Virus record (IMG/VR): IMGVR_UViG_3300025154_001007 | Location: 1-56,027 of that record | Source: a virus | DNA: 56,027 nucleotides | Reading direction: 5' to 3' (one strand) | Part shown: piece by piece, positions 1-33,650 of the stretch | Position numbering within the stretch: the stretch's first letter is position 1 | Layout: every line of letters begins with the position of its first letter | Notes under the pieces: generated by a model | What the model saw: only the letters and a program-made list of their open reading frames with translations | What the model was told of the DNA's origin: nothing | The model's database searches: none | Made by a program: the position numbers and the translations under genes

Positions 1-12
1 GACCTAAACCCC
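1..12. other. 12-base inverted fold-back at the contig end
   Basis: Bases 1-12 are the exact reverse complement of 154-165. Bases 1-8 do not match the corresponding bases before the right-hand repeat (55894-55901), which do keep the reading frame open. A short inverted copy joined through a CCCC microhomology looks like a chimeric read or an assembly-end error. It creates the false stop codon at 4-6. Confidence 0.75.
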
Positions 13-453
13 TGCAGCCGCTCCGAGCGCCGCGCCTGCACCTTCAAGTACCGGCCTGTAAAGCGGCGAAGTTGCCCGGAGTCCTTTTTTTGTGGCGTCT
101 TCGAGCTGCGCTGTATCTTCAAGTCCTATTCCGGCGTAGTTTTCGAGGTCTGCGGGGTTTAGGTCGGGTTCTGGCTTTTGCGGCATCTGCGGCGCTGGCT
201 GATCTTGCATGCCCTGGGGTTGCGCTGATTGCGGCATTTCGGGCTGTGGGGTAGGCGTAGGCGCTTGAGGCTCAACGTCAGGCTGCGCACTCCCATATTT
301 CTTCCTGATTCCAGCAACAGCCGTAGCTCTTTCGGTTTCAGGTAGAGCCGCAAAATCAGGATCGATTTTCATCAATACCTTGGTCATTTCAGCTTCAGGC
401 AGGGCGTGAAATTCAGGGTCTTTGACAACTTCAAAAACTGATGGGTAAGCCAT
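4..453 (-). CDS. N-terminal part of origin-spanning ejection-type virion protein
   Basis: The frame starts with ATG at 453 (MAYPSVF). It appears to stop at codon 150 only because the first eight bases of the window are aberrant. Replacing them with the sequence at 55894-55901 keeps the frame open into the 53428 gene, giving about 972 residues (445 + 2474 nt = 973 codons with stop). The N terminus is a short helical region followed by a Pro/Gln-rich linker (about residues 55-95). A Gly/Ala zipper-like segment then crosses the cut, a composition often seen in membrane-penetrating ejection proteins. It lies 4 bp downstream of the 458-1717 gene at the end of the late operon. The ejection role is inferred from position and composition. 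Confidence 0.85.
   Translation of the reverse strand: MAYPSVFEVVKDPEFHALPEAEMTKVLMKIDPDFAALPETERATAVAGIRKKYGSAQPDVEPQAPTPTPQPEMPQSAQPQGMQDQPAPQMPQKPEPDLNPADLENYAGIGLEDTAQLEDATKKGLRATSPLYRPVLEGAGAALGAAAGV
9..134. repeat. Left copy of 126-bp exact end repeat
   Basis: These 126 bases are identical to 55902-56027 in direct orientation. The repeat lies inside one continuous reading frame once the ends are joined, so it is best read as the overlap of a circular assembly. It is not evidence of a physical terminal repeat. Confidence 0.93.
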
Positions 454-457
454 TTAC

Positions 458-1717
458 TTAGTCCTCGAATTTTTGGAGGTAGCTGCTGGCGTCCGTTTTT
501 GGGATTGCTTGTGGGTTGTCTTGACCGGCTTCGCGCATACGCTTGCGGGTGTCTTCGAGTTGATCCTTGACGCTTTTGAGCCGCATATTACCTGCGTTCT
601 TTGTTTCCTCAAGGAGTTTAAGCATGTCTCCAAGGCTTAGATTCTTGTCGTGAATTTTGGCCCATCGCTCTTGAGCACCAACCGACAATTCGGCCACAGA
701 TCCGGTTGAGCCTGTTGCAAGCTTGCCGATTTCAGATTCGATTTCAGCCAAGTACATATCATATTTGGCTTGCTCTGCGCTTCCGGCGAGTCTACCGCGC
801 ACCATGCGAAGCGGCACGTTAAGAAGTCTCGTATCAAAGGCACTGAGTTCCTTGGATAACTCTTTGACCTTATCGACCTGCTGCGAAAGGTTGTTGACAA
901 AGCTACCCATAGAGCCGAGTTGTTTTTCTTGTTGGGCGATAGAGCCCTTGAGCCCTGCCATGGTCGCTTGGCCTTCAAGAACGGTCGCCGCGCCTTTTGC
1001 GCCGCCCAATTCCGCGGACTTTTTCAATATCTTCATTCTGAGAGGGCTTTTACCCATGCCGAGGGCTGGCATAACGCCCTTCAGGTTGTACATGTTGGCG
1101 TGGTAGGTTATTTCTTCGTCGGTCATTTCGTCTGCCGGGTCGCCTTCGCCAAATACCGATGGACGGGCGCCCTTGGGTTCTTCTGCTGTGGTTCCGTCTG
1201 AGTAATAAATTCTGACTTTATCGCCAAGATCGATTTGACTCTCCACTCTCTTACCGCGCTTTTCGGGACCACTCGCAATGAGTGTACCTGATGCGTCGAA
1301 GCGCTTTTGCCCCTCTCCGAGCGTAAAGCCTTCGCCCGCTACTTGCTGCCGCAATGAATTAAGCATTGCCTTACCCTGCGCCATGGCCTGTGGGTCGAAT
1401 CTTTCGGGGGTGCGCTGCACAATGGTCTGAAAAAACTTTCCCTGTCCCATCGGCGTCTGCGCGATATGCCCAAGGAAAGACCGATAGGCTTGATGGCTTT
1501 GCTCATCATTTACCGAGTCCAGCGCCCTCTCGATGGTTTCGGCCTGGATTCCGAGAAGTTTCATCTCGCTTGCTTGGCCTTCTCGGGCATCGTTTCTTTC
1601 GTAAAGCGCGTTCTGCCGGTCCATCTGCTGTTGGCGTTGCCTAAAGTCTGCCGCGTTAGATAATGCCTGCTGACCCTGATAAAAGCCGCCCCAAGGATTA
1701 ACAAAGCCATCTGTCAT
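458..1717 (-). CDS. Putative internal virion / DNA ejection protein
   Basis: A 419-residue protein starting at ATG 1717 (MTDGFVNPWGG). It is Gln-rich and largely helical, with coiled-coil-like stretches at about residues 18-60 and 260-300 and at the C-terminal end. It has no signal peptide or catalytic motif. It follows the radical SAM gene by 4 bp and precedes the 972-residue protein by 4 bp, in the position where P22-like phages carry gp7/gp20/gp16 ejection proteins. No family was recognised with certainty, so the function rests on location and architecture. Confidence 0.7.
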   Translation of the reverse strand: MTDGFVNPWGGFYQGQQALSNAADFRQRQQQMDRQNALYERNDAREGQASEMKLLGIQAETIERALDSVNDEQSHQAYRSFLGHIAQTPMGQGKFFQTIVQRTPERFDPQAMAQGKAMLNSLRQQVAGEGFTLGEGQKRFDASGTLIASGPEKRGKRVESQIDLGDKVRIYYSDGTTAEEPKGARPSVFGEGDPADEMTDEEITYHANMYNLKGVMPALGMGKSPLRMKILKKSAELGGAKGAATVLEGQATMAGLKGSIAQQEKQLGSMGSFVNNLSQQVDKVKELSKELSAFDTRLLNVPLRMVRGRLAGSAEQAKYDMYLAEIESEIGKLATGSTGSVAELSVGAQERWAKIHDKNLSLGDMLKLLEETKNAGNMRLKSVKDQLEDTRKRMREAGQDNPQAIPKTDASSYLQKFED

Positions 1718-1721
1718 GGTC

Positions 1722-2714
1722 TTACCCTTTCAGTTTTTCGCCGTCGATCCAGCCCTTCATAATGCCCTCATTTATAATATTGGCCGTAACGATATTTTCT
1801 ACCGCTCCGGTTTTGGCCTTGTAGAAGGGCGGGCAAGCAATATCGAATAAGTCTACGTTGTAAACATCGTACCAACTGACCAGCATGTAATAGATTCCAC
1901 CGAGTTGCATGTTGAAAAAGCTCGTCTTATTGGGCCGCCACCAGATAGGCTTTGCACCGTGCTTTTCGAGGCGCTTGACCATATCGGATGTGAATATCTT
2001 TGACTTGGCTTTGTTCTCTGCCCATAGGTTAGTGGCGGCCTTGATCCTTACTGACTCGATGGCGTCTTTGTTGGCTTCACAATAGGCAAGGATGCCATCA
2101 ATTTGTGAAAGGTCGTCTATCACAAAGAGCAGGGATTCGAGTTTGATTCCGTTTTGTTTGAAGGCTTCGACTACATTATAGTCTGCTCCGTTCGATTCTG
2201 GGTGCATTGAAAGGTTGATGGAAATCGTTCTGTGATCGTTTCCAAGAAGCGGTATCAAATCTTCGAGGTGATCGACAAGCTTTGTTCCGTTGGTCAAAAG
2301 CTCAACCGGAGCAATCGCTTTGACAGCCTTGACGATTTCAACAAGATCGCTCCGAAGTGTAGGCTCTCCTCCGGTCAAGATGATCGGTCCCATTGGCGCA
2401 TGAACAGTTGCTTCTGAAATGATTGACTCAAGCGTTCGATCTTTGCTTTGCTGGTCAACACCGTAATAGCAGTAGGCGCATTTCAGGTTGCATCTTTTTG
2501 TTACGTCCAGAAAATACCCTGGATAGAAGAAGGGCGCTCTGGCATTGAGGCATTGGAGATAAAACCCGACATCGCTTTCAACCGATTCGGCAAAGTGGCC
2601 GTGTATGTCGCATCTCTTTTCCATAACCACAACGCCGTTTAGAATCCCCACCTCTGCCGGTATTCTCTTGTAACAAGTCGGACAAAACGAGACTGTTTTC
2701 CTAATTACTTGCAT
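1722..2714 (-). CDS. Radical SAM enzyme with N-terminal CxxC/CxxH zinc site
   Basis: A 330-residue radical SAM protein. The [4Fe-4S]-binding CxxxCxxC motif is at residues 75-82 (C75, C79, C82), followed by the GGEPT SAM-binding motif at 115-119. A CxxC (C11, C14) plus CxxH (C35, H38) pair at the N terminus resembles the metal site in front of the radical SAM core of MoaA/Tes-like proteins. The barrel appears short and no SPASM cysteine cluster is obvious at the C terminus. Its start overlaps the GNAT gene by 10 nt, which in turn overlaps the ejection-protein gene, so all three are translationally linked. The substrate is unknown; the setting suggests a virion protein or a host surface molecule, which is inference. 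Confidence 0.9.
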   Translation of the reverse strand: MQVIRKTVSFCPTCYKRIPAEVGILNGVVVMEKRCDIHGHFAESVESDVGFYLQCLNARAPFFYPGYFLDVTKRCNLKCAYCYYGVDQQSKDRTLESIISEATVHAPMGPIILTGGEPTLRSDLVEIVKAVKAIAPVELLTNGTKLVDHLEDLIPLLGNDHRTISINLSMHPESNGADYNVVEAFKQNGIKLESLLFVIDDLSQIDGILAYCEANKDAIESVRIKAATNLWAENKAKSKIFTSDMVKRLEKHGAKPIWWRPNKTSFFNMQLGGIYYMLVSWYDVYNVDLFDIACPPFYKAKTGAVENIVTANIINEGIMKGWIDGEKLKG

Positions 2715-3184
2715 GTCCCCCCCTTAATGAAAAACTGCTCAAAATGTTCAAACCCTCGCTTCTTATACAACCTGTCAACCCCTTCCTTGATAGGCGTATT
2801 GATTGATATCATTACTACCTTATTTGCACCTTTTTTAAAAGACTCCTTTTCGAATTTATCTATCAGCCTGATACTGTTCATCCCCCTGTATTCTTCGTCC
2901 ACCCAATAGAAAAGTTCAATCATCAGCTTGATGCTGCGGTTATATCCCCAAGTACTGAGTCTTCCAGCAATCCCGCCCCGGACTTTGCCGCAAGGATCGT
3001 CTTTCAGCAAAATGACCAGCCCGGCTTCGTCCAGAATATAACCGGACAAAACCATATCCTTGAAGTCTTCACGGTTTAAGGGCATGCCTTGAGATTCATA
3101 GTCGGCATAGCTGAAAAACCTTTCGGCGCAATCCGCTATGCCTTCTATGTCAAATCTTGTGGCCGGAACGATTATCATCCCCAT
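2705..3184 (-). CDS. GNAT-family N-acetyltransferase
   Basis: A 159-residue protein with GNAT layout: an N-terminal strand and helix, then a motif A region around residues 95-120 (VDEEYRGMNS, with only a degenerate pyrophosphate loop), and a C-terminal LYKKRGFEHFEQ segment typical of motif B. GNATs of this kind occur among virion genes of many tailed phages, mostly with unknown targets. ATG 3184 lies inside the end of the upstream ejection gene, and the gene's own end overlaps the radical SAM start. The two enzymes therefore look co-translated. Acceptor unknown. Confidence 0.82.
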   Translation of the reverse strand: MGMIIVPATRFDIEGIADCAERFFSYADYESQGMPLNREDFKDMVLSGYILDEAGLVILLKDDPCGKVRGGIAGRLSTWGYNRSIKLMIELFYWVDEEYRGMNSIRLIDKFEKESFKKGANKVVMISINTPIKEGVDRLYKKRGFEHFEQFFIKGGTCK

Positions 3185-4773
3185 GCCCCCGGTGTGTAGC
3201 TGCTTGACATGCCCTGGCCCATGCCGCCCATAAAACTTCCACCGCCGTACCCGGTTGATCCACCGTAGAACCCACCAGAACCGCCACCGTAATATGATTG
3301 TTGCTGTGGGGCAAATTGCATGTAATTAGCCGCCATATTTCCGCTGACCCCGCCGAGCCCTGACCACATCGCGGCATTTGCTTGTCCGGCCTGCATCGCA
3401 GCATTGGCCTGTGCGTTTCCGGCATAAAGGGCATTTTGGCCCATTTGCTGCCCGGTTGCCATTGAGTTCTGGCCAGCCGAACCAGCGGCCCCTGTCCCGA
3501 TCTTTGAAAGGTCAAGATTCTGATTATAAACTTGACCGTACAAGGCATTTCCCAATCCGTAAGCTGCTCCCAGGCGGCTAAGTGCCGTGTCCTGATTCCC
3601 CTGTAACCCGCTATAAAGCGAGTTCTGCTGATTCAAAAGACGATTGTAGAGCGTATCGCCTCTTTGGGCCTGCATCTGGTATTCACTCATGGCCTTTTGG
3701 GTCATGTAGTCGCGCTCGGCCACCTGGCGGGCATACTGCTTATCGATGTCTTCGGCCGCAACACCCATAGCCGTATCTGAAAGGGTGTTGACTCCTGCGC
3801 GACTGTCGAGCAACCCCTGTTTGGCCAAAGATGCTCTTGCGGCGTCCTGGGCCTGCTTCAGTTTGTATTGATAGATCGGATCGGACTCGTTCCAGTTGAA
3901 ATCAACTCTACCTTCAAGCGTCGGCGTCAGCGGCGATAACACGCCACCTTGGGTCAGGCTTGCGTTTTGCGTGGGCGTGTAATTGGCGCCACTCATGGAG
4001 TTAACATTCAAGGCATTCGGGCTCGCGCTGGCCGTTAGCACGTTTTGCATCGTCGTGTTGTTTGCGGTTCTCGTGTCTGCCGATAGCTTTTCCTTAACTG
4101 CTGTATCCCATTCGAGCCGATTTGCTGCTTGCTCGTCGGTTGTTTTCTGCTGAGTAGTTGCTTGAGTAGGGTTTCCCTGCAAGTACTGCAATATGGCGTT
4201 GTTGATATTGGCCTGGTTTCCGCTGGTGTTGCTTCCGGCATCGCTTGTAAATGCATTCTGCTGCATCTGGATCTGTGATTGAAGGTTCGCAAGTGACGTA
4301 TTGGTAGGCGCTGGAGAGGATGCCTGTTTGTAAAATTGGTTTTGAGTCGTTGCGCGTGGAGTTGTTGCCTGCGCCTGATAGTAGCTCGGAACTTGGTAGG
4401 TGCCTTTATTGACAGAGTAGAGCGCGTTAGAATCTCCCGGCGTGTAATCTCCACCGATCTGACCAGTTACAGGGTCAACCGTAAAAGCCCGGGGGTCGTA
4501 CTGCGCCACTCCAAGACCCTGCATATAGTTGTTATATGCTGGAATTACGGTTTCCTGAAGGTACTTTGGCATTTGCGTTTGAAGGCTCGAAATGCCCTGA
4601 TACCCTGCGTCAAGATAGGGTGCCCAATCTTTTTGAGACTGTTCCCACATCTTCAACATAGCATCGGTTGAAATTTGCGCGGCCTGCACTTGGGCATTGG
4701 CCCCTGTTTTTGCGGCATCTTTTTGCGCATCGCTTCCAACTATCGCCCCAACAACACCGGATACAGCACTCAT
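3175..4773 (-). CDS. Putative ejection / internal virion protein, Gln/Ala/Gly-rich
   Basis: A 532-residue protein (MSAVSGVVGAIVGSDAQK). It begins with an Ala/Gly-rich amphipathic stretch, continues as long Gln/Asn/Ala-rich helices (about residues 180-470) and ends in a Gly/Tyr/Ser-rich low-complexity tail (about 490-532). This composition and its place just after the gp10-like gene match P22-type DNA transfer proteins, which are carried in the capsid and expelled into the cell envelope. The start is ATG 4773, 9 nt after the small 4782-4976 gene. No enzymatic motif is visible. Confidence 0.72.
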   Translation of the reverse strand: MSAVSGVVGAIVGSDAQKDAAKTGANAQVQAAQISTDAMLKMWEQSQKDWAPYLDAGYQGISSLQTQMPKYLQETVIPAYNNYMQGLGVAQYDPRAFTVDPVTGQIGGDYTPGDSNALYSVNKGTYQVPSYYQAQATTPRATTQNQFYKQASSPAPTNTSLANLQSQIQMQQNAFTSDAGSNTSGNQANINNAILQYLQGNPTQATTQQKTTDEQAANRLEWDTAVKEKLSADTRTANNTTMQNVLTASASPNALNVNSMSGANYTPTQNASLTQGGVLSPLTPTLEGRVDFNWNESDPIYQYKLKQAQDAARASLAKQGLLDSRAGVNTLSDTAMGVAAEDIDKQYARQVAERDYMTQKAMSEYQMQAQRGDTLYNRLLNQQNSLYSGLQGNQDTALSRLGAAYGLGNALYGQVYNQNLDLSKIGTGAAGSAGQNSMATGQQMGQNALYAGNAQANAAMQAGQANAAMWSGLGGVSGNMAANYMQFAPQQQSYYGGGSGGFYGGSTGYGGGSFMGGMGQGMSSSYTPGAWG

Positions 4774-4781
4774 GATTTACC

Positions 4782-4976
4782 TCACTTAGTCGTCAAGCCC
4801 CTGATTATGGCCAATAAAGCGTTGTAATCAGCAACAATTCCTGCGACATCAACGGCTGTGCTGTCAGCCGGGCAGTTACCTATGAGCTTGTTCCATAGGG
4901 CGGCGTTTTGCTTTGAGTATTCCCTGCGGCCTTGTTCTGTGTCGGCGTTGGGAGATAGTACCTTTTTCTCTGCCAT
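4782..4976 (-). CDS. Small unknown protein in the virion operon
   Basis: A 64-residue polar protein starting MAEKKVLSPN. Its ATG overlaps the stop codon of the gp10-like gene (TAATG), so translation is probably coupled. It contains a predicted C-terminal helix (about residues 40-60). It has no cysteines, signal or known motif. Constant spacing in the operon suggests a small structural or assembly factor, but this is not shown by the sequence. Confidence 0.7.
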   Translation of the reverse strand: MAEKKVLSPNADTEQGRREYSKQNAALWNKLIGNCPADSTAVDVAGIVADYNALLAIIRGLTTK

Positions 4977-6397
4977 TATGCGCCCCTCATGTCTTCTTGG
5001 ATGCTGACTAGGATTATGGGCGAATCATCGGTTATGGCCCATTCGTATTGACGGGTGTAGTATTGACCGCAAGGCCCGATCCTCTTTCGGTAGTCGGTTG
5101 AGCCGGTCGCTCCGAGCGTAATGGTTCTTTCGGTCTTCCAGCTTGTTCCTGGGTTGTCTCGCCACTTGAAGGTCAATGTGGCTATATCCGCAGATAGTTG
5201 GTTAGAGTCGCGTTTACAGTAGAACATATACCGAAGGGCGGTCTTTCGGATGTCCGGGGCTCCGTGGTGAACCATTGGGGTTCTGCCCATACTGCGCATG
5301 ATCTGGCCGTCATCCTGGTAGGTCGATGAGTCGAGCTTAAAGACCTTGCCAGAGGACCGATCCCCAGCGAGCGATAGGTTCCATTTGGTAGCTATGCAAA
5401 AATGCTGCCCCTTGAATCGGTTATATAGGGCTGTCACGGTATTCCATGAGCCGAGTTCAAACCAATAGGCCCCATTCAAATCAAGGCATAAGGTTTTGTC
5501 TTCGGTTGGGAAGCTCAAAATGTACTGAGGTCTGCCGTCAAAGTATGCGATCCCTCCGATGGCGTCGGATACCGAAGAAAAGCCTTGAATGTATTTGTTC
5601 GCTGTTAAGGCGATGGGCTCCACGCTTCGCCCGCCGCTGGACATTGCAACAATCTGGCGCTGATGGTCGAGCCATAACCATACCCCTCGGCCACTGAAAA
5701 ACACGGCTGAATGGGGCGCTGAGATCCCGCTTTCAACGGTGTATTGAGACTCTTTGACGAACGGGGTTACTCCGTCGTTTCTGTGGCCTTCTGTCGAGAC
5801 TTTACCGAAAAGCTCTATTTTATCCTGGGCAACCCCAAGGGCCGACAGCAGGTCGGGATAGGTCGAGGCCGATGCCCAATTCGATTGCCAATCTTCCGGG
5901 GCGTCCACTTGTGCCCACCAATATCTTTCTGATCCGGATTCAAGGGCCAAGAGATATTTATCGAGAACGGCGACATGGGAAACCGTCGTAGGGGCGTCGG
6001 CGTCCGCGATATATTCGGTGGTTCCAGAGGATTTAATTTCAACTATCCGGCCACCATTTGCGGCGTAAAGCGAGGTTCCGAAGTCGGCAAAATAGACTTT
6101 TTCGCCAACTTCGAAAGTATCCCCGGTAACATCTGAGAAAGTGCCGTTCTGGTCAGTGATTTTGTAGCAATTTCCGTTGCTGATTGCGATTACACACTCT
6201 TGCCGGTCCCACCAATAAAGGCCGTCGATTCCAGCGCCGGAGAGGGTATCGACCCACGCCAAAAGACCGGGCCGACGAACCACGTTGCCGTTAGAGTCAA
6301 GAAAGGCATCGACCAGGGCCGCTCCGTGAGTGGTCAGGCCGATTTCATCTATGTCTTTGTTTGCGCCTATATTTATTGGGAGTGCCTTGATTGTCAT
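4976..6397 (-). CDS. Packaged-DNA stabilization / tail hub protein, P22 gp10-like
   Basis: A 473-residue protein resembling the P22 gp10 family that closes the portal vertex and anchors tail components. Visible hallmarks are the N-terminal segment ending in RRPGLLAW, repeated beta strands typical of a propeller-like fold (about residues 40-330), and an aromatic-rich C-terminal jelly-roll-like part. Length is close to P22 gp10 (about 470). It lies between the tail-fibre and ejection genes, the gp10 position. The start is ATG 6397. It is divergent from the rightward gene at 6464 with only 66 bp between them, so an upstream promoter for its leftward transcription would have to lie beyond that inserted gene. 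Confidence 0.85.
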   Translation of the reverse strand: MTIKALPINIGANKDIDEIGLTTHGAALVDAFLDSNGNVVRRPGLLAWVDTLSGAGIDGLYWWDRQECVIAISNGNCYKITDQNGTFSDVTGDTFEVGEKVYFADFGTSLYAANGGRIVEIKSSGTTEYIADADAPTTVSHVAVLDKYLLALESGSERYWWAQVDAPEDWQSNWASASTYPDLLSALGVAQDKIELFGKVSTEGHRNDGVTPFVKESQYTVESGISAPHSAVFFSGRGVWLWLDHQRQIVAMSSGGRSVEPIALTANKYIQGFSSVSDAIGGIAYFDGRPQYILSFPTEDKTLCLDLNGAYWFELGSWNTVTALYNRFKGQHFCIATKWNLSLAGDRSSGKVFKLDSSTYQDDGQIMRSMGRTPMVHHGAPDIRKTALRYMFYCKRDSNQLSADIATLTFKWRDNPGTSWKTERTITLGATGSTDYRKRIGPCGQYYTRQYEWAITDDSPIILVSIQEDMRGA

Positions 6398-6406
6398 TTT
6401 TTTACC

Positions 6407-6442
6407 TTGACACGTATGCCTGATGTATGCCTATCATATGCC
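6407..6442 (+). promoter_or_regulatory. Promoter with three TATGCC repeats at 11-bp spacing
   Basis: A TTGACA box lies at 6407-6412. TATCAT at 6432-6437 is a possible -10 box, although the 19-bp gap is long. TATGCC occurs at 6415, 6426 and 6437, exactly 11 bp apart, so all three face the same side of the helix. The next gene starts with a ribbon-helix-helix domain, a class that binds tandem direct repeats and represses its own promoter, so autoregulation is likely. Confidence 0.65.
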
Positions 6443-6463
6443 CAACCAACACAGGAGGTCCGT

Positions 6464-7084
6464 ATGAAACGAATCAGTGTTTTTTTGCCGGAACCGTTTA
6501 TCGTTGCCCTGGAAAAGCTTGCCGCAAAGAAGGGATCGAACGTGTCTCAGTTGATCCGTGACGCTATTCATGCGTTTTTGAAGGCTGCCGGGGCGCTGTA
6601 TGTTCTGCTTGTGATCGGGTGCGCACAGAGTCCATCCGAAAGCGAAGAGTATTCTGAAAGAATCCGCGAATGGCAGACAAGGGAACAGGCGAGCCCGGAG
6701 ATTGTTACGCAGTGTCCCGAAGCTATAGATATCGTCGCAGATATCGGTAGCGTGCTCAACGAAGCTGCCTTTGGCTTTAGATACCGCACAGAAAAAGGGA
6801 ATTACTGGAAGACATCTTTTGAGGCGATAAGAGATGGTTTTGGCGACTGCGAAGACTCCGCCGCCATAGCATATAGAGTTATAAGCGATTCTTGCCTTGT
6901 AGCGAGATATGGGCTTGATGTCAGAATGAGGGCGGTCGATATTGAAGACTCTGACGATAACCACGTTATAGCCATAGCTTATACAGATTCCGGCGAGTTT
7001 GTAGAAATAAGTAATTTGTTTGCAAAAATCGGAGAAAGCGATAGACGCGTTATCGCAGAATTTACTGAATCTGAAATTTATTAG
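6464..7084 (+). CDS. RHH domain plus lipoprotein signal plus transglutaminase-like domain
   Basis: A 206-residue frame starting at ATG 6464 behind AGGAGG (6453-6458). Residues 1-42 form a CopG/Arc-like ribbon-helix-helix (MKRISVFLPE). Directly after comes a hydrophobic run ending in VIGC (C53), a lipobox. Residues 75-206 carry Cys-His-Asn/Asp spacing of a transglutaminase-like cysteine peptidase (GDCED, C129; H167; EISN about 184). A DNA-binding domain and an export signal on one chain conflict in location. TTG codon 39 (6578) would instead start a textbook lipoprotein (MKAAGALYVLL after initiation), so the frame may encode two products. It lies alone on the plus strand between leftward tail genes, like a moron. 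Whether this is one fused protein or two is unresolved. Confidence 0.75.
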   Translation: MKRISVFLPEPFIVALEKLAAKKGSNVSQLIRDAIHAFLKAAGALYVLLVIGCAQSPSESEEYSERIREWQTREQASPEIVTQCPEAIDIVADIGSVLNEAAFGFRYRTEKGNYWKTSFEAIRDGFGDCEDSAAIAYRVISDSCLVARYGLDVRMRAVDIEDSDDNHVIAIAYTDSGEFVEISNLFAKIGESDRRVIAEFTESEIY

Positions 7085-7121
7085 AACCATACCGCTATTC
7101 TATTGCTCTGCGTTTTGAGTT

Positions 7122-8750
7122 TTAATTTTTACCGTAGCTCACCAGCCTCATATGGGAATAATTGCTACCCGTGTACGATGATGTCCAATATGTATCGAAT
7201 CGACCCGAACTATCGAGTGGTATAGTTGCCTCAGATGAATTTGACGACACATTACCGCCAGCAGAATCAGTAAATGAATCTATATCAATTATGTCTGTGT
7301 AATTGTCGGCAGCACCAACTGTCCCTGTTTTTCTCGCATAGGCCTGGAAAGTCACGCTGGAAGATACCGGCCCGCCGTTTGCCACGGCCTTTACATAGAC
7401 CCTAATCCAACTAGACCCTGCGGGAACGCTATCAAGAGCTGTCCAGATATTGGCTGCCCCAGAACCTGTCGGGCCAACACTTTCCCACGCATTTTCTGCT
7501 ACCGAGGTTGTCAAGGTAAATAGCGCGGAACTGATGGCGGGATACCCACTGGCATGCGTTACTGCCGTTTCTCCACCTACATCTACGCCGCCGATCTGCA
7601 AGCCAACCGGAAAATTAGCTACGCCATCTGCGCCTAATTCAAGCGAAGACAGGCCAGTATTATGATCGAAAACAATATTTCTAGGGCTAGTGGCATGGTC
7701 TTTGCTGTAAATACGTATTCCGGCAGAGTCGCCTGATAAATCATATGGTCCAGCCCTGAGCCTAAGTTCGTCACGATCAACGTGATCGGTCCTTATTATC
7801 GCCACGTCTGTAACGCTGACGCTATTTCCCACCTCTAACTGGCCGCCAGTTACCGAAAGGCCATCCGTAAAGGTCTTGCCTGATAGATTCTCTGTACCGT
7901 CAAGCGTCACAAGGTTGTTTATGTCTGCTGCCGTTCTCGTGACGGCATGCAGCTTGGCAAAGTCGGCGGCAACAGCGCCTTGGTCGTGAAGTTGATTTAC
8001 TTCTGTTGCTGTGGTTGTCTGTAGTGTCCCGCCGATTGACAATGCGTCTACATCGGTAGCCGTGCTGTTGATTACAACCCGATCAACGCCAGCGGTCTTG
8101 ATCCGCACTTCGTCAACGTCTGCCGTGCGCTCAACCTCAATACCTGTGTCGCCATCTGAATCAAGCGTTGCAGACCTGATTCCGGCAATCCGAAGCGCTG
8201 TCCCGGAAGCATTGGGAACCACTTCAATGATTGTTCCAACTGAGGTAAACGCATAGTTCGCTGCGCCTTCAATGAGTTCTGCGCCAGAGGGATCAAGCGT
8301 AATGGCGTTAGCGCCTGATATGTGCATAATCTTTAAAGGGGAAACCCACGAAGAAACAGCCAGGAGATTGATTGTTACCGCGCCCGCCGTGGTATCGACT
8401 TCTAAAAAGTCGTCATCGCTGGTCTGCGAGGTCGTAGACGATACGGCCCGATTGTAATAATTTGGGTGCCGAACCTTTACGTTATCCCGCGGGAATCCAG
8501 AAACCTGCGCGCCGTCAACGTCGAGCACGTTGATTTTGTAAACGCCGTCGCCGTAGAGTTGGGCGGTTCCGATAGCCGAAAGCGTGTAGGACGTGAAAGG
8601 ATTGGTCTTTTCTTTTTCGGTCCATACGTTCTTTGGCGTGGTGGTTCCGGCTGAATAGAAATAGGCCGTGCCGCCGTTGACCAATTGCCCGGTTGAGGCG
8701 TCCCTGATTCCGGCCAAAAGTATTTCAATCTGGACTGCGCGAGTGCTCAT
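7122..8750 (-). CDS. Tail fibre / tailspike-like protein
   Basis: A 542-residue protein. The N terminus (MSTRAVQIEILLAGIRD) with its ASTGQLVNGGTAYFYSAGT segment resembles the virion-binding domains of phage fibres. Strand-rich repeats follow (about residues 130-400), with a recurrent pattern of short strands and Asp/Gly turns, and then a compact C-terminal beta domain likely to bind the receptor. It immediately follows the gp4-like gene (stop at 8751). No hydrolase residues were identified, so it is called a fibre rather than a depolymerase. Host receptor unknown. Confidence 0.75.
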   Translation of the reverse strand: MSTRAVQIEILLAGIRDASTGQLVNGGTAYFYSAGTTTPKNVWTEKEKTNPFTSYTLSAIGTAQLYGDGVYKINVLDVDGAQVSGFPRDNVKVRHPNYYNRAVSSTTSQTSDDDFLEVDTTAGAVTINLLAVSSWVSPLKIMHISGANAITLDPSGAELIEGAANYAFTSVGTIIEVVPNASGTALRIAGIRSATLDSDGDTGIEVERTADVDEVRIKTAGVDRVVINSTATDVDALSIGGTLQTTTATEVNQLHDQGAVAADFAKLHAVTRTAADINNLVTLDGTENLSGKTFTDGLSVTGGQLEVGNSVSVTDVAIIRTDHVDRDELRLRAGPYDLSGDSAGIRIYSKDHATSPRNIVFDHNTGLSSLELGADGVANFPVGLQIGGVDVGGETAVTHASGYPAISSALFTLTTSVAENAWESVGPTGSGAANIWTALDSVPAGSSWIRVYVKAVANGGPVSSSVTFQAYARKTGTVGAADNYTDIIDIDSFTDSAGGNVSSNSSEATIPLDSSGRFDTYWTSSYTGSNYSHMRLVSYGKN

Positions 8751-9458
8751 TTAGTCATCCGTTCCGCTGAAAAGCCAATCACTGTTTGATCCGGCAGAGA
8801 AGGGCAGGGAGTTAGCAACAGGAACGCGCATTGACATATTCCTTCGCGCTATCGTCTGCCATGCACTGTTTGCGTCGGCCCATAGGCTTTGTTCAACTTG
8901 GGTTCCGTGCATCCTTGCAAGTTTGGCGGCAAGAATCGTTACCAGAGCGTCTTCGTATTCTGCCGGTAGGCTAATGGTGGTCCCAATCAATAGGGTACTG
9001 TGCAGGTCTTTTTCACTTTCGAGAAAGACCGTATAAATGCCATTCGGAACAGGATCGAGGTAAATGACTCCGACCGGATAAACAGGGTCATAAAACAACG
9101 CATAGGGCTGACTCTGAAGCGCTTTGTCAGCTATCCCGTTGTAGTCTTTTTCTGAAATGATCTCTAATGGATAGTCTTGATTGCTGGAGTCCCGAACATA
9201 CGCGCTCTTGATTTTCTTTGCTCGCTCGGAGGACGCCGTTCCACCAGATCCCATGGTGTAAGAAACTTGGCCTGCGGTTGTAGAAAATGACTCGCTGGTT
9301 GAGTACGGCAGAATAATGTTCTGAGTTGAGAGCCGCGCAATGATCCGATTGAGGAACCGCAGGCCAAGCGTCGATTGATTTCCGTCTGGACCGTCTACAG
9401 GGTCAACGACTTGCGATTCTATGTAGGCGTCCGTTACAATGGTTTGGGCGGTAGCCAT
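8751..9458 (-). CDS. Head-tail connector / tail accessory factor, P22 gp4-like
   Basis: A 235-residue protein. The N-terminal helices carry a TLGLRFLNRIIARLSTQ segment, and a beta domain with YLDPVPNGIYTVFLE follows, both characteristic of the P22 gp4 family that docks onto the portal after packaging. The C terminus (about residues 165-235) is helical and then disordered. It starts at ATG 9458 and ends next to the fibre gene without a gap. Position between the coat region and gp10 fits the role. Confidence 0.8.
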   Translation of the reverse strand: MATAQTIVTDAYIESQVVDPVDGPDGNQSTLGLRFLNRIIARLSTQNIILPYSTSESFSTTAGQVSYTMGSGGTASSERAKKIKSAYVRDSSNQDYPLEIISEKDYNGIADKALQSQPYALFYDPVYPVGVIYLDPVPNGIYTVFLESEKDLHSTLLIGTTISLPAEYEDALVTILAAKLARMHGTQVEQSLWADANSAWQTIARRNMSMRVPVANSLPFSAGSNSDWLFSGTDD

Positions 9459-9462
9459 GGCG

Positions 9463-9747
9463 TTAATCCTTGATGAACTTCAGTTGGACCTTTTTAATGG
9501 GGAAGGGCTCTTTGGCTTTTTTGGCCTTCTTGATGAACTCGCGCTCGGCGTAGTTGGGAGCGCCTACGGTGAAGAGGATTTCAGCGATACGGCTACGCTT
9601 ATCAATCTTGCTCTTGAATCGCTTCCTGGTAGCTTTGACCGTCAGTTTGGGACTGATATACTTCGTCGCCTTGACCGCGCCGTGATACAGAATGCACTCC
9701 GATAGTTCCTTAAAAACCATGCTTTGACCTAAAAAGTCTTGCGCCAT
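9463..9747 (-). CDS. Conserved small phage protein, paralogue of 22460-22750
   Basis: A basic 94-residue protein of unknown function. It shares the blocks GAVKATKYISPKL, KATRKR, VGAPNYAEREFIKKAKKAKE and PFP.K.VQ with the gene at 22460-22750, so the phage carries two diverged copies. This copy sits among head-tail genes. The strongly basic, strand-forming core could bind nucleic acid, but no known motif supports a function. Confidence 0.78.
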   Translation of the reverse strand: MAQDFLGQSMVFKELSECILYHGAVKATKYISPKLTVKATRKRFKSKIDKRSRIAEILFTVGAPNYAEREFIKKAKKAKEPFPIKKVQLKFIKD

Positions 9748-9749
9748 AA

Positions 9750-10085
9750 CTACCCCTCCTTGTTCGACTCGATAAACTCGTTGATTTTCAGGCGCATATC
9801 TTTGACGGTCATTGAGTCCGTAAACTCAAGACCGATGCCTTTGCCGAAGTCGATAAGCTCTGCGCTGTTCATGGTAGATGGATACTTTTTGGCCTTGGGC
9901 TTTACAGGCTCTGCTTTTTCAGTCCCGGTTCCATCGTCCAGGGCTTCCCACATTTTACTGGTCCGCGGATCGTCAAAGGCGGGAGAATCGTACCAGCCTT
10001 TGGTGATAACCTCTCCCTTCTCGAAAATCTTGGCCGCTTCGGTCTTGCTGTACATCCATCTCCGGTTATCGTTGTAAGCTGCCAT
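9750..10085 (-). CDS. Unknown virion-region protein with HeH/LEM-like C terminus
   Basis: A 111-residue protein. The N-terminal part (RRWMYSKTEAAKIFEKGE, then GWYDSP) matches a motif pattern seen in small proteins of podophage head modules. Residues about 75-108 (NSAELIDFGKGIGLEF..MTVKDMRLKINEFI) look like a helix-extension-helix SAP/LEM/HeH fold. A charged Pro/Lys linker separates the two. It abuts the 9463 gene and overlaps the radical SAM stop by one base. Function unknown. Confidence 0.72.
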   Translation of the reverse strand: MAAYNDNRRWMYSKTEAAKIFEKGEVITKGWYDSPAFDDPRTSKMWEALDDGTGTEKAEPVKPKAKKYPSTMNSAELIDFGKGIGLEFTDSMTVKDMRLKINEFIESNKEG

Positions 10086-11368
10086 TAAACCCCCTTATGT
10101 CGCTCCCGGTGCCCATTCATGAGCCTGTCAATGTATTTGTAGTTGACGCCCTTTATGGTAGGCCGAAAGCGGTTCGTGCGTTCGATTGTTCTAGTCTTGG
10201 TTTCTGGTAGGATCAGGTCCATGCTTTCGCAAAGGTCGTAAATGCCAGTTCCTGGAATTGGGGTAAAATAGAACGGGCTCGGATGCTCTGGGTTGATTTT
10301 CTCAATCATGTTAATGGTTGCAAGGGCCTCGTCTTCGGTTTCGGTCGGAAGGCCGAGCATGTAAGTCCCGAATACTTTTATGCCGTTGGCCTTGCAGATT
10401 CTTGCCGCCTCAATGTTCTGCTCTACGGTCGTACCTTTTTTGATGAGGTCCAGAATCCGCTGGCTTCCGCTTTCAAGGCCGATCACGAACCAGGTAACGC
10501 CGATGCTTGCCAAGCGCTCAATCATGCCAGGGTTGCGGCATATGATATCGGCTCGGCTACAAGCGACAATCGGGGTCCCGATCCTGGCCTTCTCGTACAG
10601 GTCGCAAAACTCCTCAATCCACTTTACTCTGAACGTGAAGGTATCGTCCCAAAAGGTAATACTCTTATAGTGAAACCTTCCTTTGAGGTAGGACAGCTCG
10701 GCCACTACGTTTTCTGGGCTTCGCAGTCGATACGGATTGCCGAAAACAGCGTTTTCTGCGGGCTGGCAATACGAGCAGGAAAACGGACAGCCACGGCCCG
10801 CCAGCATGGTAACCGACGGCAGGGCTTGATCCGGCGTGAAGTTGCAGGACAACTCCCGCTTGTAGTCAAATAGTTCACGGTCTACCCATGGGATAGCGCC
10901 AAGGTCCGGTTTGGCTCCACGGTATATTTTGGGAAGTTCTTGACCGGCCTCGATCATCTTTAACAGGTCAACGAAAGCTATTTCACCTTCGCCTTGAACT
11001 ACCGAGTCGATAGCGGCAAAGTCGTACTGGCCAGGGAAGATTGAAGGATGGATTCCACCGACTATGATCTTACAGTTCGGCACGGTTCTTTTCAGGACAA
11101 GCACGGCACGCATGCAGTGCCAATGGTCAACGGCTGATACCGATATGCCGTAAACATCGGCGGGATTGGCCTTGACCTTGGCTTCGAATTGCGACCAATC
11201 GGAAAGATGACGAAGGTCAATCAGGTCAACGTCATAGCCTGCGGCTTTGGCCGCTGCTCCTACCGAGGCGCATCCGTGGCCGATCCAAGAGCCTTCGCGG
11301 TCTCCATAGGGCCTGTCTGCGTTCATTCCAGCGACACCAACATGACAAAAAATCAGGGTTACTCGCAT
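10085..11368 (-). CDS. B12-binding-domain radical SAM enzyme
   Basis: A 427-residue protein with a Rossmann-like cobalamin-binding domain (about residues 1-145: VTLIFCHVGVAG, YGISVSA, KIIVGGIHPS, GEGEIAF) followed by a radical SAM barrel. From ATG 11368 the CxxxCxxC cysteines are about C194, C198 and C201. The architecture is that of class B methyltransferase/ring-forming enzymes such as BchE or HpnR. ATG 11368 overlaps the glycosyltransferase stop (TGATG), so the pair is coupled. Substrate unknown; a virion protein, glycan or lipid are all possible. Its place between coat and head-tail genes is unusual. Confidence 0.9.
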   Translation of the reverse strand: MRVTLIFCHVGVAGMNADRPYGDREGSWIGHGCASVGAAAKAAGYDVDLIDLRHLSDWSQFEAKVKANPADVYGISVSAVDHWHCMRAVLVLKRTVPNCKIIVGGIHPSIFPGQYDFAAIDSVVQGEGEIAFVDLLKMIEAGQELPKIYRGAKPDLGAIPWVDRELFDYKRELSCNFTPDQALPSVTMLAGRGCPFSCSYCQPAENAVFGNPYRLRSPENVVAELSYLKGRFHYKSITFWDDTFTFRVKWIEEFCDLYEKARIGTPIVACSRADIICRNPGMIERLASIGVTWFVIGLESGSQRILDLIKKGTTVEQNIEAARICKANGIKVFGTYMLGLPTETEDEALATINMIEKINPEHPSPFYFTPIPGTGIYDLCESMDLILPETKTRTIERTNRFRPTIKGVNYKYIDRLMNGHRERHKGV

Positions 11369-12282
11369 CAAGCCCCCTTCTCGAATTTGGCGTTGATGTC
11401 TTTCACTTTCTGAAGATTGTTCGACATTTCCGACAACATTCTTTCGGTGTCTTCTTCGGTTGCGCCTACACTGGCTTCGATTGCAGCCTTTGCAGATGCC
11501 GCCAAGAGGTGGTCCTGGAAGTTTCCTTTCCAGGCCTTGATTCCGTAGTGCTCGATTTCAATATTCGGCTCACACCAGATAGCGCCTCCCATCTCCTTAA
11601 AGCGCTGCTGGAAATACACATCTTCCCCGATGCGATTGCCGCCGACCTTTCCGCCAGACTGAAGCCTCATAACAAGGGCCACAAGTTCGTCATGGCTAAA
11701 GCCTTCTATTTTATCTTTAGGCATGTGCTTGTGTTCTGTTTCGATTGAACACTTGAACGCCTCAAGGATCTCTTCCTTTGATTGCGGGTCAACGTACGAA
11801 TCAAGATTTGGGCGCGTTCGCTCGAATGCTTCGCGGCTGTATATGACGAAACCGCCAGGGGCGACTTCCATTTCAATCAGGCGGCTACCATGGATTTCTT
11901 TGCCCATGACATACCCGTCTTCAGAGCGTTTTTCGATCCCTCCGAAAAAGTCCCACATGTTTTTGCACGGGTACAATCCACAGACCATTTCACAGCCTGG
12001 AATCATGGCGGCCTTGACGAGTCTGCCGAAGCCTGAAACGTCCCACGCTTCATCTGAATCTATAATCATTATGTGGGTATGGTTGCTTTTTAGGAACTCA
12101 TGGACCAATGCGTTTTTGGCGCGGTCAACGTATGAATCCCCGCTAATTTGCTGGTACGACCAATTCAACCCGGCCTGATTAAGCAGCCTGATAGAATTCA
12201 CAAGGCTTGTGACGTATGGGCTATACGCACGCACCTCATAAAATGCAGAACTGATCAGTATGCTGAACTTCTTCTTTTCCAT
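11368..12282 (-). CDS. Glycosyltransferase-like protein (GT-A type)
   Basis: A 304-residue protein; ATG 12282 is preferred over an in-frame TTG at 12291 because GGGAGGGG stands upstream. The N-terminal strand-helix units lead to IMIIDSDEAW (about residues 71-80), a DxD-like metal and nucleotide-sugar site of GT-A folds. Further typical elements are GLYPCKN and FGGIEKR. A charged helical tail ends the protein. Its stop overlaps the B12 radical SAM start, suggesting that the two act in one pathway. The target could be capsid protein or host surface; this is inference. Confidence 0.72.
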   Translation of the reverse strand: MEKKKFSILISSAFYEVRAYSPYVTSLVNSIRLLNQAGLNWSYQQISGDSYVDRAKNALVHEFLKSNHTHIMIIDSDEAWDVSGFGRLVKAAMIPGCEMVCGLYPCKNMWDFFGGIEKRSEDGYVMGKEIHGSRLIEMEVAPGGFVIYSREAFERTRPNLDSYVDPQSKEEILEAFKCSIETEHKHMPKDKIEGFSHDELVALVMRLQSGGKVGGNRIGEDVYFQQRFKEMGGAIWCEPNIEIEHYGIKAWKGNFQDHLLAASAKAAIEASVGATEEDTERMLSEMSNNLQKVKDINAKFEKGA

Positions 12283-12338
12283 TTTTACCAACCCCTCCCA
12301 GTATGTTGTTTAATGGGGGCCGGAGCCCCCATGTTGTA

Positions 12339-12593
12339 CTAAGCACCAAGCCCCAAATTTGCAGCCAGCTTCAGAAGTTCATCAACGGCGATGATTAGTT
12401 GGTTGGCCTGGGTGCTGGTAGAAAAGCCCCATTTTGTTGTGGTGGTGGAAATTGCAACGGTCGTTGCGATGGTGGTAACTGTGAGCGACTGTTGAACTGT
12501 GGGGGTGGCCCCGAAAAAAGCGATTTTCTCGCTTGAAGTAAGGCCGAGACACGCGCCGTCCGGCTGATTGGTGCCGATATATTCTACTGACAT
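12339..12593 (-). CDS. Small head-associated protein, unknown
   Basis: An 84-residue protein (MSVEYIGTNQPDGACLGL). The pattern CLGLTSSEKIAFFGATPTVQQ, then a Thr/Ile-rich strand region and a C-terminal helix (QLIIAVDELLKLAANLGL), recalls small proteins encoded next to phage coat genes, often considered head fibre or decoration proteins. It lies just downstream of the coat gene on the same strand, apart from the inserted rightward HNH gene. Function inferred only from context. Confidence 0.68.
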   Translation of the reverse strand: MSVEYIGTNQPDGACLGLTSSEKIAFFGATPTVQQSLTVTTIATTVAISTTTTKWGFSTSTQANQLIIAVDELLKLAANLGLGA

Positions 12594-31451: not shown

Positions 31452-33650
31452 TTAAAGCCTACCTATGGGCGGGTAAAGTTCTCTGATTTTGCCCATATCT
31501 CCCTTGTATGCCACGATGATTTTTTGCTCTCTCTTCGGAAATTTTCGATAGTTAAGTGTAACCTTTGCATGAGATAAGCGGGTAAACTCGCACTCAAGAT
31601 AAACAATCTTGTTGTAGATATGTAACCCCTCGCCCTTGATGAAAAGCTCGTGCTCTGCTTCGCAACCGTAATAAGCCCCGTTTTTGTCTCTTGAGTCGCC
31701 TGTCATGACAACGAAGAAGCAGTTTTCATTAAGGGCGCTGATAGCTTTTCTGTACCCCGTAAAAAGCGTATCCCTGAACTGCTCGTATGTAGGTAGAGAA
31801 TTTATTTCACCCTCTGGCGGGTTCCCGTCGTAATCAACGTACTTTTCAACCCGATAGTAGGGCGGGCATGTAAATATTAAATCAAAGTTTCCATCTGGAG
31901 TGTACCGTGAGCTATCACTTCTAACCCAGGTAGCTTTTCCAGACAATCCATCGCACAGTGCATTGTTTGCATCGCATTGGTTTTGTCGTATCTCGCTTGC
32001 GATGTATTCATAACCATAACTCGCAGTTATGAAACCGAACTGAACGCCACCACCGAAAGGGTTGTAAACCCGCTTACCATTGGTTGGCATGAAAAACCTA
32101 AGAACAACTTCACAGGCTACCGGGTCTAAAACAGAAGCGTTAGCGTTGAAAGATTTGCCTTTTTTGTGCTTAACTTCTCCGTCTTCGATAACTTGTTTTG
32201 CAAGGACCACGTTTGACATTCCATTGGTGCCTTGCCAGCAGCCACCTCTTGAGGCGCACTTAGGGTTTTTAATATTGTGTCTTTCTCCCGCTGCCTCTAT
32301 CTTTTCGTTCCATTCTCGCTTCATTTTAAGCCAGTCTGAGCGAGTTGTTGTCCAGGCGTTGGTCATAGTGGCATGGGCAAGGCGCTTCATCCTAATTTGC
32401 TCCTGGGTGCCATAAACCATGTATTCAAATCCGCTAAGGGTGAGGTATGTGAAAAACCCCAAAGCCTTATAAACTGACGGACATTCAAGATCGTGTTTGG
32501 TACTGACGGTCATTATCATGGGGTAGCCAAAGGTGTTTTGCTTTATGATCTCCTTAACCATATTACCATATATAGCCTTGTCTTTCTTGTCCAAACTCAT
32601 GGCCGATTGAAGCAGGCAAAACTCATTAGCCTCATGGTTCAATTGATAAGTAAAGAATCCAGAAAAAACGCCATCTATTTTCAAAATAATAGCTGAATGT
32701 ATTTGCATATTCTTTCTTGCGGCCCGGTACGCCACACCGTCAAGAATAGCCAACTCAGCAACGTCTTTTTCATACCCTGACCCCATGACTGAATCGACTT
32801 GAACGAATTCTATTTTTTGTTCAAACACACTGAGTTGTTGAGGCATTTTTCTTAATCTCCCGTTTTGTTTTATTGCGTATCCCCACGGTACCCCGCACTG
32901 GTCTGGACAGTGCTTACACTCCCCCAGGAAAACATTATCGCTATGGATTGAAACAATCTGATTTCCAATTATGTTATCAACTGTTTTTGTTATCCCGATA
33001 TGGCCGTTTGTAAATAATGGCCCGTTAAGCCGTGGCCGTAAGGGGTTGTCTATTATTTTGAACGGCAAACTTAACAGGTAGCTTTGAAAATTGGCGCATT
33101 GCTTTGCGTATTCAGTGGTTAAAAAATTACACGTAACTATCCTTAGGACGCTTTTAATTCCCACCTTTTTAATTCTATCGGACTGCTCAAGCCGTTCTTC
33201 TATTTCTTCTTCGGTGTCAAGCGGGCTTACTGATGTGTTTATAACTGCATTGACTTTTTTAAGTCTTTCGGCCTGCCCATCTGACATTTTAAACCAGTGC
33301 TTGGTTACTATAACCGGAACCTTTAGGGTGTCCTCTAATTGCTCGCAAACCGTTACAGTGTGCTCCCAATCGTGCGATGGATCTCCGCTTACGCCTACCC
33401 TGTACCACGACAATTTGTGGCCCTTAACGGTCTTAAAAACATCTCCAAACGTGTCCTTGCCTATTTTCCGCGTAACGCTTTTTGAGAAGTCAAACCCACG
33501 CGCTTTTGCTATCTTGAAAGCGTAGCACTCTCCATAACAGCCACCGTTGGGATACCTTGAAACGCCGCAAGCACACCCCTTAACGGTATCGACGTCAAGG
33601 ACGCCCTTTAGGTTTTCTGATGCTGTCAAAATTGGTAGGTATTCAGGCAT
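31452..33650 (-). CDS. Radical-SAM-like / GNAT (Mom-like) / DNA methyltransferase fusion
   Basis: A 732-residue three-part protein. Residues 1-265 resemble a radical SAM TIM barrel with variant cysteine spacing (C26/C28, C38, C42 in GGCYGECYAF; a second cluster C245, C248, C252), related in layout to DUF5131-type proteins. Residues about 285-425 look like a GNAT fold (IHSAIILKIDGVFSGFFTY; CPSVYKALGFF), the fold of phage Mu Mom. Residues about 465-732 are a DNA methyltransferase: NPFGGG (540-545, SAM site) and TCPPYY (604-609, catalytic). Together these suggest a DNA base hypermodification enzyme, possibly for restriction evasion. Chemistry and specificity are inferred. Its gene directly follows 33651-33833 behind a strong promoter. 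Confidence 0.82.
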   Translation of the reverse strand: MPEYLPILTASENLKGVLDVDTVKGCACGVSRYPNGGCYGECYAFKIAKARGFDFSKSVTRKIGKDTFGDVFKTVKGHKLSWYRVGVSGDPSHDWEHTVTVCEQLEDTLKVPVIVTKHWFKMSDGQAERLKKVNAVINTSVSPLDTEEEIEERLEQSDRIKKVGIKSVLRIVTCNFLTTEYAKQCANFQSYLLSLPFKIIDNPLRPRLNGPLFTNGHIGITKTVDNIIGNQIVSIHSDNVFLGECKHCPDQCGVPWGYAIKQNGRLRKMPQQLSVFEQKIEFVQVDSVMGSGYEKDVAELAILDGVAYRAARKNMQIHSAIILKIDGVFSGFFTYQLNHEANEFCLLQSAMSLDKKDKAIYGNMVKEIIKQNTFGYPMIMTVSTKHDLECPSVYKALGFFTYLTLSGFEYMVYGTQEQIRMKRLAHATMTNAWTTTRSDWLKMKREWNEKIEAAGERHNIKNPKCASRGGCWQGTNGMSNVVLAKQVIEDGEVKHKKGKSFNANASVLDPVACEVVLRFFMPTNGKRVYNPFGGGVQFGFITASYGYEYIASEIRQNQCDANNALCDGLSGKATWVRSDSSRYTPDGNFDLIFTCPPYYRVEKYVDYDGNPPEGEINSLPTYEQFRDTLFTGYRKAISALNENCFFVVMTGDSRDKNGAYYGCEAEHELFIKGEGLHIYNKIVYLECEFTRLSHAKVTLNYRKFPKREQKIIVAYKGDMGKIRELYPPIGRL

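Follow-up and report, generated by a model that had tools for sequence, protein, structure and literature searches.

Among the closest described relatives of the locus studied here is the ejection cassette of phage P22 (genes 10-26-14-7-20-16). The record for P22 gp10 is named head closure Hc3, and gp7 matches phrog_598 (DNA ejection). A small GNAT-like protein encoded by gene 14 (DUF2824; phrog_651) sits between the needle gene 26 and gene 7, and the cassette contains no radical SAM enzyme (rSAM). Ejection proteins have to pass through the portal in an unfolded state and then fold again across the cell envelope. An excerpt of PMC10883804 describes genes 16 and 20 of P22-like phages, which encode ejection proteins, as mosaic and highly variable. 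Another relative is Pseudanabaena phage Pam1, whose acetyltransferase (Pam1_11) belongs to phrog_1249 and is encoded downstream of the needle-head gene in the same operon. No rSAM is annotated near Pam1_11 (this is from annotation only, as Pam1 lay outside our PF04055 search).

We analyzed a virus record from IMG/VR (IMGVR_UViG_3300025154_001007), and we call this whole stretch of 56,027 nucleotides the window. It is an environmental, 56 kb P22-like podophage with a circular map, because bases 11-134 are identical to 55904-56027 (124 nt shared by the contig ends) and because the frame of the third ejection gene (EJ3), which is cut by the contig ends, reads open through the join to give 972 amino acids. 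The first 10 bases of the window resemble an assembly edge. On the minus strand, the head and tail genes run in the order terminase, portal, scaffold, major capsid, adaptor, and head closure, followed by the ejection cassette. Within the cassette, the order is head closure (gp10-like), a small ORF, EJ1, GNAT, rSAM, EJ2, and EJ3:

4976..6397, minus strand: head closure or packaged-DNA stabilization protein (P22 gp10-like, HC3); matches phrog_578, head closure Hc3, E 7e-42
4782..4976, minus strand: small ORF of 64 amino acids; conserved, with 100% identity in L001 and about 61% in L009 and L011
3175..4773, minus strand: EJ1, ejection protein 1 (P22 gp7 family); residues 1-82 match phrog_598, DNA ejection, E 7.8e-10
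2705..3184, minus strand: GNAT-fold protein, from PF00583, phrog_1249, and a structural model; the likely start is 3178
1722..2714, minus strand: rSAM enzyme with an N-terminal rubredoxin/HMPTM-type site, from PF04055, PF23545, kinship to Tes, and a motif scan
458..1717, minus strand: EJ2, at the position of P22 gp20, from position and mosaic alignment; no confident family match
4..453, minus strand: 5' part of EJ3, at the position of P22 gp16; runs on across the contig ends
53428..55821, minus strand: 3' part of EJ3, from the joined frame; shares 92.6% identity with the L001 protein over residues 288-1084 of the latter

(L001 and similar labels denote related viral records.) In L001, EJ3 is a single gene encoding 1084 amino acids. 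Neither EJ2 nor EJ3 had a confident family match that names a function, and we assigned their ejection role from position only. If a P22-type cassette is taken to be an Hc3 gene and a gp7-family gene followed by two more virion genes, then the window contains one: the Hc3 and gp7 families are shared with P22, and in both cassettes Hc3, gp7, and two further genes follow one another in this order. The cassettes differ in that P22's GNAT-like gene precedes gene 7, while the window's GNAT follows its gp7-like gene and belongs to a different family (phrog_1249 instead of phrog_651), and the window has an added rSAM. The first-pass annotation had placed GNAT and rSAM inside an ejection-protein operon, and the coordinates, the gene order, and the match of EJ1 to phrog_598 all confirm this. 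We found no tRNA genes in the window, and promoter and terminator scans of positions 1-12500 found sites no more numerous than in shuffled DNA.

The rSAM matches PF04055 (55.3 bits, cut-off 29.5) and the N-terminal ribbon of HMPTM enzymes (PF23545; 50 bits, cut-off 27). Among solved structures, the one closest to it in sequence is 7TOL (E 1.6e-23), a structure of the tetraether lipid synthase Tes, also known as GDGT-MAS (MJ0619, PDB 7TOL/7TOM). In an excerpt of PMC9433317, the rubredoxin site of GDGT-MAS is given as C9X2C12X20C33X2H36. A motif scan found C11, C14, C35, and H38 (CX2CX20CX2H) in 4/4 phage proteins, so the N-terminal CxxC/CxxH site pointed out in the first-pass annotation is real, and its spacing is exactly that of Tes. 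The RS core is also shared with Tes: C75, C79, and C82 (CX3CX2C) are present in all four phage lineages, and the catalytic cysteines and the TGGEPT motif are kept in each. The enzyme is predicted to hold one mononuclear metal site and one [4Fe-4S] cluster. The best fold match of the rSAM model is again 7TOL/7TOM (Foldseek E 1.6e-11; VIA Z 14.5 against Tes, rmsd 8.8, 263 residues aligned, with VIA restricted to the families on its list). The model is weak (pLDDT 62, below 50 at the C-terminus), so we used the fold matches only beside the sequence matches. The next-best structural matches are MoaA and the peptide-modifying enzymes PqqE and SuiB, and viperin-like enzymes are also near the top.

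The phage rSAM is a reduced relative of the Tes/HMPTM enzymes and not a Tes, because the auxiliary motif is absent and because its C-terminal region has only one invariant cysteine. The auxiliary CX3CX2C that lies before the RS motif in Tes is found in 0/4 phage proteins, versus 9/9 of the cellular PF23545 proteins that we examined (9 of 11 matches; the two cellular matches L056 and L057 were below the cut-off and were left out). These cellular proteins come from a search of 245 genomes of the Nitrospirae phylum, of which 9 have a match. Most of the cysteines of the C-terminal auxiliary cluster of Tes are missing as well, although ligands other than cysteine are conceivable for a cluster there. 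The phage protein has 330 amino acids versus 526 in Tes (7TOL). The score against the NCBIfam equivalog for Tes (NF045702) was 81.9 of the 450 bits needed, and together with the absent auxiliary motif this rules out orthology to Tes. Elp3 has an rSAM domain and then a GNAT domain within one polypeptide; a split Elp3 is ruled out, as the phage genes are separate and in the reverse order (GNAT first). As to a cellular source of the rSAM, one scan of genome contigs gave only an rSAM of an unrelated type, from a Nitrospirae MAG.

The GNAT matches PF00583 (23.6 bits, cut-off 20.7) and phrog_1249 (E 4.8e-15). Its model is confident (pLDDT 91), and the top PDB matches are acetyltransferases. The canonical pyrophosphate loop for acetyl-CoA is RxxGxG/A, and none of the loops in this clade fits it: they read RGMNSI in the window, RGINSI in L009, RGVSSL in L011, and RGKVSI in L016. 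Because this loop is degenerate in the clade, we consider catalysis by the GNAT to be putative. The phrog_1249 family is present in 11 of 35 related records. Among cultured or deposited phages, the GNAT matches Pam1 (about 30% identity to Pam1_11, which has the same placement after the needle-head gene), and matches to the rSAM are partial and weak (6 records, none with over 80% coverage). Since P22 gene 14 and the Pam1 acetyltransferase occupy the same operon, a GNAT-type protein is an ordinary component of this operon, and the rSAM is the unusual member.

The first-pass annotation had described two overlaps of 10 nt, and one of them stands. In the window, GNAT shares 10 nt with rSAM (ATGCAAGTAA), and AAGGGGGGG lies upstream of the ATG of rSAM. 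The EJ1/GNAT overlap is 10 nt only if GNAT starts at 3184. The codon equivalent to this ATG is TTG in L001, and a start two codons downstream is shared with L009, so the conserved overlap is probably the 4 nt of ATGA, with GNAT starting at 3178. In the relatives, the overlap of GNAT with rSAM is 10 nt (L001), 14 nt (L009), or 4 nt (L011), and a gap of 3 nt (L009) or 4 nt (L011) lies between EJ1 and GNAT. A purine-rich sequence precedes GNAT and rSAM separately. Between the window and L001, dN/dS is 0.08 for rSAM and 0.06 for GNAT. Both genes are under purifying selection, and their layout is one of translational coupling. With such low dN/dS, and with the same order in every one of the six records that extend to the site, the arrangement is beyond chance, and conservation and dN/dS rule out chance ORFs.

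To find relatives, we scanned viral contigs with rSAM, GNAT, and their alignments (giving L001-L006 and L009-L011, some of which are the same contigs); these scans rely on short exact peptide patterns, and distant homologs may escape them. A scan with the head-closure alignment gave 33 loci, and we surveyed PF04055 in these plus L010 and the window, or 35 records (tblastn with HC3 matched 35 phage records). GNAT and rSAM were at the same position in each of the six records that extend as far as the rSAM site, a clade with at least 70% identity in head closure, within which identity of the rSAM falls to 47%. This count leaves out L003, L015, L018, and L019, which end before the rSAM position, and L016, which ends within EJ1. 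The full order (HC3, small ORF, EJ1, GNAT, rSAM, EJ2, EJ3) is seen in the window, L001/L013, L009, L010, L011 (truncated within EJ3), and L006 (truncated within rSAM, and with an extra ORF before EJ1). The trio thus recurs in other phages in the same order, as the first-pass annotation had suggested checking. That annotation had also considered that relatives might carry the pair mostly outside virion operons, which we did not find in the scans of viral contigs. Its view that rSAM genes are uncommon in virion operons agrees with our survey: 7 of 35 records have any PF04055 match (six from this rSAM family, and one a SPASM protein in L022), and only this clade has an rSAM within the ejection gap. 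We conclude from these comparisons that the GNAT and the cluster-stripped Tes/HMPTM-type rSAM are fixed members of this P22-like ejection cassette. The extra ORF in L006 (2584-3441, between head closure and EJ1) encodes 285 amino acids; it is not in L009, and L015 holds its start.

The sister phages L009, L010, L006, and L011 give another link between the enzymes and the ejection proteins. L009 and L010 have just 7 differences in the 2214 nt that span the tail of EJ1, GNAT, rSAM, and the N-terminal half of EJ2, versus 177/1254 (14%) in the body of EJ1 and 138/275 (50%) in the C-terminal part of EJ2. L006 and L009 have no differences in 1073 nt (the EJ1 tail, GNAT, and the part of rSAM held by L006), versus 3% in the EJ1 body. 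Conversely, L009 and L011 are similar upstream of the block (HC3 is 93% identical and the EJ1 body is 88% identical) and diverge within it (EJ1 tail 50%, GNAT 59%, rSAM 55%, and 61% and 50% for the N- and C-terminal parts of EJ2), and identity recovers to 73% over the first 300 nt of EJ3. For this pair, the best segment is 3977-6515 (chi2 of 727, versus at most 17 in 20 shuffles). The breakpoint at 3977 of L009 is near codon 461 of the 513 codons of EJ1, so the block starts with the last 50 or so codons; this C-terminal tail (about 50 amino acids) is rich in glycine and tyrosine. In the mosaic alignment, EJ2 from L010 has an L009-type N-terminal half and an L011-type C-terminal half. Between the window and L001, EJ2 is 92-74% identical beside rSAM and then 50-60% in its C-terminal part, the start of EJ3 is 93% identical, and rSAM also remains similar.

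These alignments indicate that the EJ1 tail, GNAT, rSAM, and the N-terminal half of EJ2 move between sister phages as a single allelic unit whose flanks remain related. Because the traveling unit includes parts of EJ1 and EJ2, the enzymes are tied to the ejection proteins, and we consider this link to be stronger than that from gene overlap. The linkage to EJ2 is imperfect: across all of EJ2, L009 is closer to L011 (47% identity) than either is to the window (29-33%), but for GNAT and rSAM it is L011 that stands apart. Also, the block junctions lie near 3980 and 6200 of L009, and because the junctions coincide with exact matches of 47-57 nt, assembly chimeras are possible. Ordinary recombination at conserved islands of homology could yield the same pattern, given that the excerpt of PMC10883804 describes the ejection genes of P22-like phages as variable and mosaic.

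We propose, with a little less than even confidence, that the GNAT/rSAM pair modifies or matures the ejection proteins late in infection; the block exchange makes modification of virion proteins, which the first-pass annotation had suggested, plausible. The most likely targets would be the EJ1 tail, the N-terminal half of EJ2, or both. In this scheme, reductive cleavage of SAM by the rSAM would lead to a radical change of the protein in a single step, and the GNAT might acylate, chaperone, or recruit the target. Enzyme and substrate alleles would then have to match, which would explain why the enzymes and the ejection segments travel together. A fuller version is more tentative: a dedicated rSAM of the Tes type but free of auxiliary clusters, with its GNAT partner, would install a radical-derived change on the DNA-ejection proteins, with enzyme and substrate segments co-evolving and being swapped as a matched cassette. 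We did not recognize a RiPP-type precursor motif in EJ1 or EJ2 by eye, and the EJ1 tail and the EJ2 N-terminal half are mere candidates for a role as precursor or substrate.

These phages and their relatives also contain other enzyme genes. At 10085-12291 (minus strand) of the window, after the major capsid gene, a gene for a B12-binding rSAM overlaps a GT2-like gene by 4 nt. These two genes are also in L013 (at 85% and 56-57%), and with them the virion operon has a second block of enzymes. In L022 (36% identical in head closure), genes for NeuB, a class IV aminotransferase, the SPASM rSAM, and a cytidylyltransferase (5934-9361) lie directly before the head-closure gene, and this run of sugar genes suggests decoration of the virion with sugar. 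L017 has a sulfotransferase-like gene (4838-5488) amid its head genes. The window also encodes a 732-amino-acid protein (31452-33650, minus strand) with a cysteine-rich N-terminus and a C-terminal part that resembles DNA methyltransferases (phrog_498).

The main alternative to modification of the ejection proteins, which we think is rather unlikely, is that GNAT and rSAM are an auxiliary pair (for metabolism, host takeover, or counter-defense) that is merely expressed from the late operon and acts on a host molecule or a nucleotide. rSAMs with host metabolites as substrates are more common, MoaA and viperin-like enzymes are among the next-best structural matches, and the same phages carry the second enzyme block in the head region. 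But in each of the six records that cover the site, we see allelic replacement and never presence versus absence, and the boundaries of exchange are inside EJ1 and EJ2 instead of at the ends of the pair.

It is improbable that the GNAT, the rSAM, or both are non-catalytic assembly factors or scaffolds. P22 gp14, which is encoded in nearly the same place, is annotated as a head-morphogenesis protein, and the loops of the GNAT depart from RxxGxG/A. L017 (a 36-kb record that is 45% identical in head closure and covers the gap) has no rSAM, and in place of the GNAT it encodes a DUF2824 protein that weakly resembles acyl-CoA N-acyltransferases in the phrog comparison. A scaffold would need neither the catalytic cysteines nor TGGEPT, yet the rSAM retains both in 4/4 lineages.

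Least probable of all is that the rSAM acts on a lipid or an envelope molecule and in this way helps the ejection channel to insert: its closest solved relative does couple lipids, and in the excerpt of PMC9433317 the C-terminal auxiliary cluster of Tes adjoins the lipid pocket, but the auxiliary clusters are missing or reduced in the phage enzyme, which is also far shorter than 7TOL and far below the Tes equivalog score.

The phage proteins define a minimal Tes-like rSAM architecture without the N-terminal auxiliary cluster. If the ejection proteins are the substrates, then this would be a modification of the phage injection machinery that is made by a radical SAM enzyme, and a limited literature search found no paper on such a modification. 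A covalent change on the ejection proteins would bear directly on the function of the channel. The cassette exchange predicts that a phage would be impaired if its enzyme allele were swapped and the matching ejection-protein segments were not.
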